Assembly (NCBI GenBank): GCA_027486795.1
Contig: JAIXOI010000042.1
Span: forward strand, 1 to 64,000
Direction: 5' to 3'
DNA length: 64,000 bases
Source: Sphingobacteriales bacterium
GTDB lineage: Bacteria > Bacteroidota > Bacteroidia > Chitinophagales > CAIOSU01
Under the pieces are notes generated by a model that ran no database searches, had not been told where the DNA came from, and saw only the letters and a program-made list of their open reading frames with translations. Below, one piece after another: positions 45,243 through 49,531 of this stretch. Each line of letters opens with the position of its first letter. The first letter of the stretch is position 1. Made by a program: the position numbers and the translations under genes.

Positions 45243-45503
45243 GTTAATTTTAGACGATAGAATCACAGCCTGTTTTGACTAACCCACGTCCTTTTTTGAC
45301 GAGGACGAAACGCACCTCGCGTCTTTAGACGCACAGCAAGCCGTAACTCAAATTCGCCTTTTATTTTCGATTTTAGGTTTACGACTTATGAATGGGTTAT
45401 GTAATTAGCATTTTGGGTTGAGCAATTAACGAAGCGCTGTAATATAAAATTGATTTTCCACTTTACCTCAATCGTAAATCTAAAATCGTACCTCATAAAT
45501 ATT

Positions 45504-45519
45504 TTTAGTCTAGTCTAAA
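45504..45519. promoter_or_regulatory. Putative metalloregulator operator 1 (TTTAGTCTAGTCTAAA)
   Basis: Palindromic around CTAG apart from one symmetrical T/T pair, and placed 8 nt before the -33 box. The core TAGTCTAGT recurs inverted at 45564-45572. DtxR/MntR-type repressors bind palindromes of this size. Confidence 0.5.
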
Positions 45520-45527
45520 TTTTAGTT

Positions 45528-45558
45528 TTGATAGTTTAAAATTTTGTTGTTAATTTTG
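45528..45558 (+). promoter_or_regulatory. Promoter of the metal importer operon
   Basis: TTG (45528-45530), 20-nt spacer and TAATTTTG (45551-45558) fit the Bacteroidota consensus exactly. Transcription should begin near 45563-45566, 6-9 nt before the ATG at 45572. Confidence 0.7.
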
Positions 45559-45563
45559 TGTTA

Positions 45564-45572
45564 ACTAGACTA
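45564..45572. promoter_or_regulatory. Putative metalloregulator operator 2 (ACTAGACTA)
   Basis: Inverted copy of TAGTCTAGT, covering the expected transcription start and the first base of the start codon. Confidence 0.45.
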
Positions 45573-46489
45573 TGAGAACTCCTGCGCTGATACTATTAAC
45601 CTTTTGCACCCTGCTTTGGATGGGGTGCACCAACGAGGCTAAGAAAACCACTACCACCGGCGGTAAAATTTATATAGTAACCACCACGGGTATGCTAGCC
45701 GATGCCGTGCAACACGTGGCGGGCGAATATGCCACCGTTGAAGCCCTGATGGGCCCAGGCGTTGACCCACACCTTTACAAAGCTACGGGCAGCGACCTGA
45801 GCAAACTGAACAAAGCCGACCTGATATATTACAACGGCCTGCACCTTGAAGGCAAAATGACCGAGGTAATGGTCAAGCTTGGGCAAAAGAAACCAGTAAT
45901 AGCATTGGGCGATAAACTTCCGCCCGAAAGGCTTATAAACCATGGTGCGGCGCACGACCCACATATTTGGTTTGATGTATCACTATGGGCCGAAATTTTG
46001 CCTTTGATAGCAGATGAACTGATAGCTTTTGATGGTGCACATGGCCAAGTATATGCCGAAAACTCGATCAAGTATCAAAAAGAACTATTAGAACTGGATG
46101 CTTGGGTGAAGGAGCAACTGAACAACATACCACCCAACCAACGGATATTGGTAACGGCGCACGATGCTTTCGAGTATTTCGGCAAAGCTTATGATATGGA
46201 AGTGCGTGGCCTGCAAGGTATATCAACCGTGAGTGAGTATGGCTTAAAAGACGTAACCGATGTGGTAGATATGCTTGTGAGCCGCAAGATAAATGCCGTG
46301 TTTGTGGAAAGCTCGGTAAGCGATAAGGCTCTTAAAGCCGTGGTGCAAGGGGCCGCCGACCAAGGGCACACCGTAAAAATTGGCGGCACGCTATTTAGCG
46401 ATGCCATGGGTGCGGGCGATAAACCAGAAGGTACCTATGTGGGCATGGTAAAGTATAACGTAACAACCATAGTAGAGGCCCTGAAATGA
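45572..46489 (+). CDS. TroA-type metal-binding lipoprotein of a Mn/Zn/Fe ABC importer
   Basis: A 305-residue solute-binding protein with lipobox LWMGC (Cys19). The four metal ligands can be read as His67 (VDPHLYK), His131 (HDPHIWFD), His197 (VTAHDAFEYF) and Asp277 (LFSDAMGAG), the His-His-His-Asp set described for treponemal TroA, which binds Zn or Mn. The long helix and GISTVSEYGL match this cluster. It is the first gene of a four-gene operon and overlaps the ATPase gene by 4 nt. Confidence 0.93.
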   Translation: MRTPALILLTFCTLLWMGCTNEAKKTTTTGGKIYIVTTTGMLADAVQHVAGEYATVEALMGPGVDPHLYKATGSDLSKLNKADLIYYNGLHLEGKMTEVMVKLGQKKPVIALGDKLPPERLINHGAAHDPHIWFDVSLWAEILPLIADELIAFDGAHGQVYAENSIKYQKELLELDAWVKEQLNNIPPNQRILVTAHDAFEYFGKAYDMEVRGLQGISTVSEYGLKDVTDVVDMLVSRKINAVFVESSVSDKALKAVVQGAADQGHTVKIGGTLFSDAMGAGDKPEGTYVGMVKYNVTTIVEALK

Positions 46490-47271
46490 TTCAGCACGTT
46501 GACAACCCGATAATTGAGGTGCACGACCTTACCGTGAGCTACGACAAAAAACCGGTGCTCTGGAACGTCGATTTCACGATACCCGCAGGGGCTTTGGTGG
46601 GCATCATAGGACCAAACGGTGCGGGAAAATCAACGCTAATAAAAGCCATGATGGGTTTGTTGCCATTGAGCAGCGGCTATACGGAGTTGTTTGGCAAAAA
46701 GCTTAACGATGTGCGCAAGCGCGTGAGTTATGTACCGCAGCGCGAAAGCGTGGATTGGGATTTTCCAGCAAGCGTGATGGATATTGCCCTGATGGGTCGC
46801 TACGGACAGCGCGGACTGTTCAATCGTATTACTGCCGAAGACCGGTCTATTGCTCGTCAAGCATTGGAGGAAGTGCACATGCTGGAGTTTGCCAACAGGC
46901 AAATCGGTCAACTTTCGGGTGGGCAACAGCAACGGGTATTTCTGGCCCGTGCCCTTGCGCAACAAGCCGACCTATACTTTATGGACGAGCCCTTTGCTGG
47001 CGTAGATGCCGCAACCGAAGGTGCCATAATTGAGCTATTGAAAGAACTAAAATCGCAAGGCAAAACCATACTTGTGGTGCACCACGATTTGCAATCGGCT
47101 GCCGATTATTTCGATTGGATAGTATTGCTCAATACCCGTTTGGTAGCATCTGGCCCAGTAAAAGAAGTGCTCACCCCTACCCTGTTGCAAGAAACCTACG
47201 GCGGCAAGCTTTCGCTGCTAGCCCAAGTTGGCGACATTGCCAGTAGCAAGGGTGTGGGAACACGAGAATAA
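46486..47271 (+). CDS. ATPase of the Mn/Zn/Fe ABC importer (TroB/YtgB type)
   Basis: A 261-residue ABC ATPase. Walker A is GPNGAGKST, the Q-loop is in SYVPQRESVDWDFP (typical for metal importers), the signature is LSGGQQQR, Walker B is LYFMDEPFAGVD, and the switch His is in VVHHDLQ. It energises uptake through the two permeases encoded next. Its stop codon is followed at once by an AT-rich boundary element. Confidence 0.95.
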   Translation: MIQHVDNPIIEVHDLTVSYDKKPVLWNVDFTIPAGALVGIIGPNGAGKSTLIKAMMGLLPLSSGYTELFGKKLNDVRKRVSYVPQRESVDWDFPASVMDIALMGRYGQRGLFNRITAEDRSIARQALEEVHMLEFANRQIGQLSGGQQQRVFLARALAQQADLYFMDEPFAGVDAATEGAIIELLKELKSQGKTILVVHHDLQSAADYFDWIVLLNTRLVASGPVKEVLTPTLLQETYGGKLSLLAQVGDIASSKGVGTRE

Positions 47272-47305
47272 TTTGAAAATGTGGCAATTTGAAAATTTGA
47301 AAATG
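47272..47305 (+). repeat. AT-rich 3' boundary element, copy 4 (after ATPase gene)
   Basis: Starts at the first base after the stop codon (47269-47271): TTTGAAAATGTGGCAATTTG then AAAATTTGAAAATG. Orientation relative to the gene is the same as in copies 1-3. Confidence 0.85.
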
Positions 47306-47334
47306 AAAACAATTAAGAACATACCTTTTTAACC

Positions 47335-47369
47335 GCCATTTCCAAATTAGCTCATTTTCAAATTTCCTA
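47335..47369 (-). repeat. AT-rich boundary element, copy 5, inverted relative to copy 4
   Basis: GCCATTTCCAAATTAGCTCA followed by TTTTCAAATTTCC. It faces copy 4 across about 30 bp, so the pair can fold into a long AT-rich hairpin between the ATPase and permease genes. The 11-mer AATTAAGAACA brackets it (47311-47321 and 47369-47379). Confidence 0.75.
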
Positions 47370-47381
47370 ATTAAGAACAAC

Positions 47382-48689
47382 ATGAATTCACTATCCCAAT
47401 TCCTCTCACTCTCCGATGCCAACGTGCGATACGTGGTTATCGGGTGTGTGTTGTTGGGTATTAGTTCAGGTTTGATGGGGGTTTATACCCTACTGCGCAA
47501 GCGCGCCCTTATTGGCGATGCCATTGCGCACGCGGTATTGCCGGGAATATGTATCGCCTTTATGCTTAGTGGCGTGCGCAATACTTGGGTGTTGTTTGCA
47601 GGGGCAGTGGTTACGGGTAGTTTGGCCGTTTATTTGGTCGATTTAATTACCCGCCGCAGCCGCCTAAAGCCCGATGCTGCCATAGCTTTAGTGCTTTCCG
47701 TATTTTTTGGGGCTGGAATTTTATTGCTCACCATTATACAAAGCAGCGGAAACGCAGCCCAATCGGGGCTGGATAAGTTTTTGTTTGGTAAAGCCGCCGC
47801 CATGTTGCCCGAAGATTTGTGGCTATTTGGCGTGGTGCTATTGTTGGTCGTTTTGGTCTTACTTACTGGATATAAAGATTTTAAGCTACTGGCGTTTGAT
47901 AAGGGCTATGCCCAAAGCCAAGGCATCCCCGTGAAAGCCTTAGAGATGGTGCTTTCAACGCTTACTGTGCTCACTGTTGCTACTGGCATACAAGCCGTGG
48001 GCGTGGTGTTAATGTCATCCTTGCTAATTGCCCCTGCCGCAGCCTCACGCTATTGGACCCACCGCCTATCGGGTATGTTGATATTATCGGCTATTTTGGC
48101 CACCCTTGGTGCTTACATTGGCGCGTTTATATCCTACACCAAACCCGGCATGCCTACCGGGCCTTGGATAGTAGTGGTGCTATCTTGCATTACCCTTGCC
48201 TCTATGCTGTTGGCACCCAACCAAGGGGTTATAGCCCGTTACTTACAACGCCGCAAGCACCGCAACAAAATATTGCAAGAGAACATTCTCAAGGCGTTTT
48301 TCCATTTGGGAGAGAAAAAGAACAACCAAGCCTTGGCCTTTGGGATGGAAGTGCTGCGCCAACAGCGCGACATGCCTGTTGCCCGATTAAAATCGGGTCT
48401 TAGACAACTGGTGCGCCAGGGCAGCTTATTAGACACTAACGAAGGCTACCAACTTACTCGCTCAGGCTTGGAAGCCGCCACCCGCGTGGTAAGGTTGCAC
48501 CGCTTATGGGAACTGTACCTATCGCGCCACCTAAATATTGCGCCCGACCACGTGCACGAAGATGCCGAAGGTATTGAGCACTTAATAACCCCGGAACTGG
48601 AGCGCGAATTAGAACTATTGCTCGATAGCCCTGGCATTGACCCACATGATAGCCAAATACCTTACACCCAAAAAGACCGAAACCGCTAA
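47382..48689 (+). CDS. Metal ABC permease fused to a DtxR/MntR-type repressor domain (YtgC-YtgR-like)
   Basis: A 435-residue fusion. Residues 1 to about 285 are an ABC-3 permease with 8-9 helices (GDAIAHAVLPGI motif near residue 45). From residue 287 (basic RRKHRNK) a cytoplasmic part begins: a winged helix at about 295-360 and a dimerisation/metal domain at 361-425 with RLHRLWELYL, HVHEDAEGIEH and DPHDSQIP. The EGIEH motif (Glu396, Glu399, His400) matches manganese MntR, where iron DtxR has Cys; Glu300 aligns with MntR Asp8. The same fusion is known in chlamydial YtgC, which releases YtgR as a repressor. The stop and the next start share one base (TAATG). Confidence 0.92.
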   Translation: MNSLSQFLSLSDANVRYVVIGCVLLGISSGLMGVYTLLRKRALIGDAIAHAVLPGICIAFMLSGVRNTWVLFAGAVVTGSLAVYLVDLITRRSRLKPDAAIALVLSVFFGAGILLLTIIQSSGNAAQSGLDKFLFGKAAAMLPEDLWLFGVVLLLVVLVLLTGYKDFKLLAFDKGYAQSQGIPVKALEMVLSTLTVLTVATGIQAVGVVLMSSLLIAPAAASRYWTHRLSGMLILSAILATLGAYIGAFISYTKPGMPTGPWIVVVLSCITLASMLLAPNQGVIARYLQRRKHRNKILQENILKAFFHLGEKKNNQALAFGMEVLRQQRDMPVARLKSGLRQLVRQGSLLDTNEGYQLTRSGLEAATRVVRLHRLWELYLSRHLNIAPDHVHEDAEGIEHLITPELERELELLLDSPGIDPHDSQIPYTQKDRNR

Positions 48690-49531
48690 TGGATGCCTTC
48701 TGGATCATATTAACCGGTAGTTTGGTGGCGCTCAATGGGGCGCTGTTGGGCAGCTTTTTGCTGCTTCGCCGCATGAGCTTGGTAGGAGATGCCATTAGCC
48801 ATGCCGTATTGCCAGGCATAGTAGTGGCCTACCTTTTTACCGCCAGCCTTACCTCGCCGTTTCTGCTAGTAGGCGCGGCACTTACTGGTCTGGCTGCTAC
48901 TTGGATTATCGAAACCCTAAACCAAAAGGCACGTTTGCAACACGATGCCGCCATTGGCTTAACTTTTACGCTGCTGTTTGCCATTGGGGTTATACTAGTA
49001 GCCTCCTTTGCAGGGCAAATTGACCTAGACATGGACTGTGTGCTATATGGTGAAATAGCTTACGTGCCACTCGATACTATTACCCTTGCCTCAGGAATAG
49101 GCATGGGACCTAAGCAAGTCTGGACATTGGGCATTGTATTTGTTGGACTAATCATACTACTACTTACTGGCTACCGCGGCCTCAGCCTTACCACCTTCGA
49201 TGCGGGCTATGCCGCGGCGCTGGGTTTCAACACCTCGTTTTGGCACTATGCCTTAATGGGTGCTGTGTCGCTGTCAACGGTAGCAGCTTTTGAGTCGGTG
49301 GGTGCTATATTGGTGGTGGCTTTTTTAGTAGGCCCAGCTGCTACTGCCTTTTTACTCACTCGTAGCCTAAAATGGATGCTACTTATTGCCAGTGCCGTGG
49401 GCATTGCCTCGGCAATAAGCGGTTATTACCTGGCCCTTTGGCTCGATGGTTCTATCTCTGGCGCTATGGCTTTGATGACAGGGGTGATATTTGCTTTAGC
49501 GTTTGTTTGGCAAATGGTGGTGAAACGATAA
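48689..49531 (+). CDS. Second permease of the Mn/Zn/Fe ABC importer (TroD/YtgD type)
   Basis: A 280-residue ABC-3 permease with about eight helices and the GDAISHAVLPGIV motif near residue 33, closely matching the permease part of the preceding fusion. It lacks any repressor extension. It overlaps the fusion gene by one base and closes the operon; no terminator hairpin is obvious after it. Confidence 0.93.
   Translation: MDAFWIILTGSLVALNGALLGSFLLLRRMSLVGDAISHAVLPGIVVAYLFTASLTSPFLLVGAALTGLAATWIIETLNQKARLQHDAAIGLTFTLLFAIGVILVASFAGQIDLDMDCVLYGEIAYVPLDTITLASGIGMGPKQVWTLGIVFVGLIILLLTGYRGLSLTTFDAGYAAALGFNTSFWHYALMGAVSLSTVAAFESVGAILVVAFLVGPAATAFLLTRSLKWMLLIASAVGIASAISGYYLALWLDGSISGAMALMTGVIFALAFVWQMVVKR

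Follow-up and report, generated by a model that had tools for sequence, protein, structure and literature searches.

The window analysed here, 64,000 nucleotides of contig JAIXOI010000042.1 from a Sphingobacteriales bacterium, harbors a metal importer operon in which the first ABC-3 permease carries a DtxR-like module as an in-frame C-terminal extension. This fusion is real, ancient and widely distributed. In the explanation that we prefer, and to which we give an even chance of being correct, transcription is regulated by a standalone DtxR, and the fused domain senses Mn/Fe in the cytosol and probably exerts feedback on the importer.

Domain structure of the fusion protein

The fusion is encoded by a single uninterrupted frame at positions 47382-48689 of the forward strand, which extends from ATG to TAA and corresponds to 435 amino acids. 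Pfam assigned residues 15-277 to ABC-3 (E 8e-63) and residues 359-427 to Fe_dep_repr_C (E 9e-22). In an AlphaFold2 model of the whole protein (pLDDT 85.6), residues 3-299 resembled PsaC (Z 35.7) and residues 294-433 resembled DtxR (Z 18.5). The C-terminal part modelled alone (residues 285-435; pLDDT 89.4) matched DtxR with a Z score of 18.3 over model residues 10-149, covering both domains of the DtxR fold, winged helix included; comparison with the Mn repressor DR2539 gave 33% identity and a Foldseek TM of 0.77-0.84. Reading frame, Pfam and structure model confirmed the first-pass annotation, which had described a permease and a DtxR-like module in one frame. Its description of the repressor as complete holds only in the sense of a two-domain DtxR: the fused module lacks the SH3/FeoA domain of standalone Bacteroidota DtxR, and its winged helix fails the family model for DtxR DNA binding.

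The PsaC-like permease domain comprises residues 1-282 (47382-48227, forward strand, as are all parts of the fusion; Pfam and model), with Asp46 and His50 of the motif GDAIAH invariant across the family. It is followed by a basic juxtamembrane helix (residues 283-297, 48228-48272), delimited from the model and the alignment of relatives, which has a family mean net charge of +4.5 and runs on into helix 1 of the winged helix. The DtxR module begins about 16 residues past the last transmembrane helix, and in the model the two are connected by a short helix that is ordered and not by a flexible linker. The winged-helix domain (residues 298-358, 48273-48455) has kept the DtxR fold, but the sequence of its recognition helix is not conserved. 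The metal-binding and dimerisation domain extends over residues 359-428 (48456-48665; PF02742, E 9e-22). An assembly or frameshift artefact was rejected, as the full-length frame was found in four other genomes of the genus (87-97% identity) and in all 80 named loci described below; the frameshift or stop at the junction that the first-pass annotation had considered is absent.

Organization of the importer operon

The genes of the operon, all on the forward strand, follow the order substrate-binding lipoprotein (45572-46489), ATPase subunit (46486-47271), fusion (from 47382) and second permease (48689-49531). The lipoprotein belongs to the ZnuA family of Mn/Zn/Fe ABC importers (PF01297, E 1e-77); its nearest NCBIfam models, AztC, EfaA and MntC, all scored below cut-off, as did the models nearest to the ATPase (PF00005), namely Mn/Fe ABC ATPase and MntA. 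The second ABC-3 permease (PF00950, E 3e-49) is without C-terminal extension. Neighbouring genes overlap by 1-4 bp, with 4 bp shared by the lipoprotein and ATPase genes and the start codon of the second permease overlapping the stop codon of the fusion, save for a gap of 110 bp ahead of the fusion. An ABC-3 permease fold with substrate-binding and ATPase partners in one operon identifies an ABC-3 Mn/Zn/Fe importer, and the Pfam assignments bear out the operon context proposed beforehand, with the layout of ytgABCD. The gap (47272-47381) contains repeated TTTGAAAAT/ATTTTCAAA-like words; in most relatives it is almost nil.

Distribution and phylogeny

The first-pass annotation had proposed a search for this domain pair across Bacteroidota. 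Full-length fusions were present in each of the five genomes of the genus, the source genome among them, and in one of two other genera of the source family. Across the phylum, fusions of the window type occurred in 14 of 198 genomes (about 1 in 14), divergent long fusions in three more (G043, G070, G164) and a shorter type in at least 13. When 84,980 named genomes were scanned with a profile, at least 572 matches were obtained, with at least 533 confirmed relatives, and 80 loci among the matches listed were kept. All 80 carried the pair as an in-frame fusion and originated from Bacteroidota or near relatives, e.g., Pontibacter, Rufibacter, Chryseobacterium, Roseivirga, Fulvivirga, Parapedobacter, Marivirga, a Balneolales MAG and a Kapaibacterium MAG; most also showed the gene order of the window. 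The earlier statement that the only known fusion of this kind is chlamydial agrees with the literature found, since permease-repressor fusions outside Chlamydia were not encountered in open-access literature, which misses most subscription papers; it does not hold for the architecture itself, which is widespread in Bacteroidota.

The fused domains formed one clade apart from the standalone DtxRs (support 100/99, with many long branches and a rough bootstrap), and an origin as a recent copy of the neighbouring dtxR was therefore rejected. In the explanation that we prefer, the permease has borne a DtxR-derived module since early in the history of Bacteroidota. In one MAG (L078, 3151-4438), the permease part of the fusion is split across two overlapping frames, probably by a sequencing frameshift. 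The second permease of 1333 amino acids at L071 was rejected as a fusion; its length reflects a run of N.

Other architectures were found among the relatives. In class 2 (L034-L046) the two permeases each end in a C-terminal extension, and neither extension includes a metal domain. That of the first permease is a winged helix homologous to that of the window (hhalign probability 97.2%); it is DtxR-like and has a conserved HPH motif. The second permease has a His-rich extension (HLLHHE...HL.W). Class 3 (L047, L048) combines permease, winged helix, metal domain and an FeoA-like domain in 479 amino acids, the FeoA match lying just below cut-off. Furthermore, locus L095 (2237-4468) encodes ATPase, permease and DtxR-like module in one frame of 743 amino acids, seen in a single MAG so that a sequencing error is possible; such a chain would comprise a whole transporter half plus sensor. 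The class 2 operons and the L095 frame suggest that the module works as part of the transporter.

The metal-binding site

Residues His373, Glu377, His392, Glu396, Glu399 and His400 correspond to the DtxR ligands His79, Glu83, His98, Cys102 (replaced by Glu), Glu105 and His106. These columns are invariant or nearly so among the relatives, few parts of the fusion protein are as well conserved as the metal site, and the metal-binding/dimerisation model PF02742 matched 59 of 59 fusions, as did the ABC-3 model. The metal motif EGIEH (Glu396, Glu399, His400) had been read correctly, and the site is intact and, with Glu at the position of DtxR Cys102, of the Mn type. Glu300 had been taken as the equivalent of MntR Asp8; this was wrong, as the alignment places Asn301, one residue further on, at the position of MntR Asp8 and DtxR Met10 (ligand positions as listed in PMC4805248). 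Standalone Bacteroidota DtxRs share this Asn, which is therefore a trait of the group rather than a loss.

In every pair where it was measurable, dN/dS of the metal domain was ≤0.07. It is extremely improbable that the module is a functionless evolutionary leftover or an assembly artefact, even though its winged helix evolves fast: the fusion recurs in four further congeneric genomes and in 80 independent named loci, and both the nearly invariant ligand columns and the low dN/dS argue against such an origin. A leftover without function is already refuted by the conservation of the metal site. The same conservation, together with the start of the module about 16 residues beyond the last transmembrane helix, would also suit a metal buffer, with imported Mn/Fe being captured at the cytosolic opening and either retained or handed over while the rate stays unaffected; we regard this as very doubtful, a dimerisation fold and a winged helix being superfluous for a simple buffer.

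The winged helix

The DtxR DNA-binding model PF01325 matched none of 59 fusions. When whole genomes were scanned, it detected a standalone DtxR in all 22 fusion-bearing genomes examined as well as in the source genome, and never the fusion frame. Across 51 genomes encoding fusion and standalone protein together, the recognition helix averaged 33% pairwise identity in the fusion versus 65% in the standalone protein, and HTH helices 2-3 averaged 32% versus 56%; the corresponding values for the metal domain were 71% and 73%, and the fusion permease reached 64%. The first-pass annotation had made its repressor reading depend on DNA-binding residues, and the base-contact positions 37, 39 and 43 of DtxR proved not to be conserved in the fusions, where the commonest residue accounted for 40, 18 and 25%, respectively, as compared to 81, 76 and 91% in the standalone proteins. 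Core positions 41, 45 and 48 are conserved and hydrophobic in both. Within the genus, dN of helices 2-3 rose to about 0.35 versus 0.035 in the metal domain, and the standalone HTH was identical in the same two congener genomes.

The fused winged helix is basic, with a mean net charge of +5.4 (against +1.9), and is under purifying selection where dS is measurable; it is therefore not a relic. It seems to be kept for fold and charge. Given the retained fold (Z 18.3), the basic character and the purifying selection, it may still bind DNA.

The operator and the standalone DtxR

A DtxR-type operator, TTTAGTCTAGTCTAAA (consensus TTTAG-N6-CTAAA), is predicted at 45504-45519, about 53 bp ahead of the start codon of the lipoprotein gene, and is the only copy in the window (0.25 expected). 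An operator had been supposed to lie within 45500-45575, and the palindrome and its conservation before related operons substantiate this: the exact motif with a spacer of 6 was found upstream of 42 of 68 related operons (0.0 in shuffles), and the palindrome did not occur upstream of the 68 with any other spacer. The copy of a congener (G003) differs from that of the window in the centre only. The Pontibacter and Rufibacter loci L091, L092, L096, L108, L110-L112, L114-L117, L123 and L127 had no TTTAG-N6-CTAAA upstream; they have fusion and standalone dtxR, and may use a different operator or one at another position.

A possible promoter of the Bacteroidota type can be read shortly after the operator, at 45527-45558 of the forward strand, with TTTG (45527-45530) and TAnnTTTG (45551-45558) 20 bp apart; these match the Bacteroidota consensus for the -33 and -7 elements. 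A scan for sigma-70 promoters found nothing. By the start codon of the lipoprotein gene (45560-45574), ACTAGACTA is the reverse complement of the operator core TAGTCTAGT and possibly a second half-site. Additionally, the source genome has a second operator, TTTAGATTAGGCTAAA (L163, contig C8, 32931-32946), upstream of a gene for a TonB-dependent receptor, likely a co-regulated outer-membrane metal receptor.

The source genome encodes one standalone three-domain DtxR (contig C42), and a canonical standalone DtxR was also present in 22 of 22 fusion-bearing genomes checked, so that in none of them is the fused module the only DtxR-type regulator. Standalone dtxR is usually the first gene of the operon that encodes the fusion: in 47 of 67 assessable loci it directly precedes the gene for the substrate-binding protein. 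Among genomes lacking the fusion, the operator stands beside standalone dtxR in 8 of 17, including G086 and G144 (these two from coordinates), and in six fetched loci it lies 17-50 bp from the dtxR start. The operator thus follows the standalone DtxR. We infer, with good support, that this separate DtxR controls transcription of the operon.

The first-pass annotation had instead cast the fused domain as the repressor of the operon, tethered or cut free like YtgR and binding the operator with Mn/Fe. Domain order and operon order are indeed those of chlamydial ytgABCD with its cleaved, autoregulating YtgR (PMC6504234, PMC5599777), and the DtxR fold with intact metal site, the basic winged helix and the presence of an operator are as this would require. 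We nevertheless consider it unlikely. The operator is conserved yet the recognition helix is not, PF01325 matched 0 of 59 fusions, and the same operator adjoins standalone dtxR where the fusion is missing; fusion-bearing genomes always have a canonical DtxR as well, whereas no iron-dependent regulator other than YtgR has been identified in Chlamydia. Internal translation initiation as a way of freeing the repressor was rejected, as no start codon is conserved near residues 268-311. The argument from PF01325 would weaken if YtgR itself failed this model; the contrast in conservation within the same genomes would stand.

Transporters can also sequester regulators, as is the case for Mlc or GlnK. 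In a comparable fashion, the fused domain could pair with the standalone DtxR via the dimerisation domain common to both, retaining it at the membrane or setting it free according to the state of the transporter. Within the same genomes, fusion and standalone protein show equal conservation of the dimer and metal domains, the two genes are usually adjacent, and a winged helix without specific DNA contacts would render mixed dimers inactive. The two proteins form separate clades, however, and class 2 permeases have retained the winged helix without a dimerisation domain; sequestration appears quite unlikely.

A possible role in feedback on the importer

The presence of a separate, normal repressor in the same genomes makes the fused domain look more like a sensor of the importer than a gene switch. 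By analogy with known transporters, we infer, with moderate support, that the module senses cytosolic Mn/Fe and, when loaded, slows the transporter. The importer would be of the Mn(II)/Fe(II) ABC type, its first permease bearing the DtxR-derived module at the cytosolic end. At high metal levels, cytosolic Mn/Fe would load this module, which would then dimerise or change shape and slow the transporter by feedback or trans-inhibition; the winged helix would be retained as a scaffold linking sensor to permease. Standalone DtxR would provide slow transcriptional control and the fused module fast post-translational feedback. Somewhat short of an even chance, in our estimate, is the further proposal that a repressor was co-opted once, early in Bacteroidota, as an allosteric importer sensor, so that this DtxR domain would function without DNA recognition. 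Besides the fold, charge and selection of the winged helix, two points count against the sensor reading: the module is present on only one of the two permeases, and a DtxR-type dimer would therefore have to bridge two transporters; furthermore, known trans-inhibition domains, such as the C-terminal ones of MetN and ModC, are located on the ATPase, whereas here the module is on the permease.

If the sensor reading is true, the same metal is sensed twice by two DtxR-family proteins, often encoded in one operon, one acting on DNA and the other on the pump. A DtxR domain would then have turned into a transport regulator, which reopens the question of the role of YtgC-YtgR in Chlamydia before cleavage. 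Pontibacter, Chryseobacterium, Roseivirga and Parapedobacter offer free-living, culturable hosts for studying permease-repressor fusions, and TTTAG-N6-CTAAA provides a defined operator for studying Mn/Fe regulation in Bacteroidota.

Comparison with known systems

The closest known protein, compared by its published description, is chlamydial YtgCR (CT069/CTL0325), which likewise joins an ABC-3 permease in frame to a C-terminal DtxR-like module. Its operon ytgABCD has the same order of substrate-binding protein, ATPase, fusion and second permease (PMC5599777, PMC6504234). Chlamydial YtgR, the sole iron-dependent regulator identified there, is cleaved off and represses (PMC6504234); in contrast, the Bacteroidota fusions are always accompanied by a separate canonical DtxR, and their recognition helix is not conserved.

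With DR2539, SloR, ScaR, MtsR and DtxR/IdeR the module shares fold and metal site, with Glu at the Cys102 position as in the Mn-type members. It differs from them in being joined to a permease, in lacking conserved DNA-contact residues, in having Asn at the Asp8/Met10 position and, in the window type, in being without SH3/FeoA. PsaC, from the Streptococcus pneumoniae Mn importer PsaBC, shares the permease fold (Z 35.7, 31% identity over 283 residues) but not the regulatory extension. PsaBC is described as homodimeric (PMC11779740), whereas the two permeases of the window operon differ from each other. Transporter control by regulatory domains fused on the cytosolic side is a recognised principle, in an account that does not mention DtxR (PMC10710835). 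The proposed logic would be shared with MetNI and ModABC, in which import slows once the substrate taken up has bound to a fused domain in the cytosol (PMC10710835); there the domain has another fold and resides on the ATPase, whereas the putative feedback module described here is derived from DtxR and borne by the permease.
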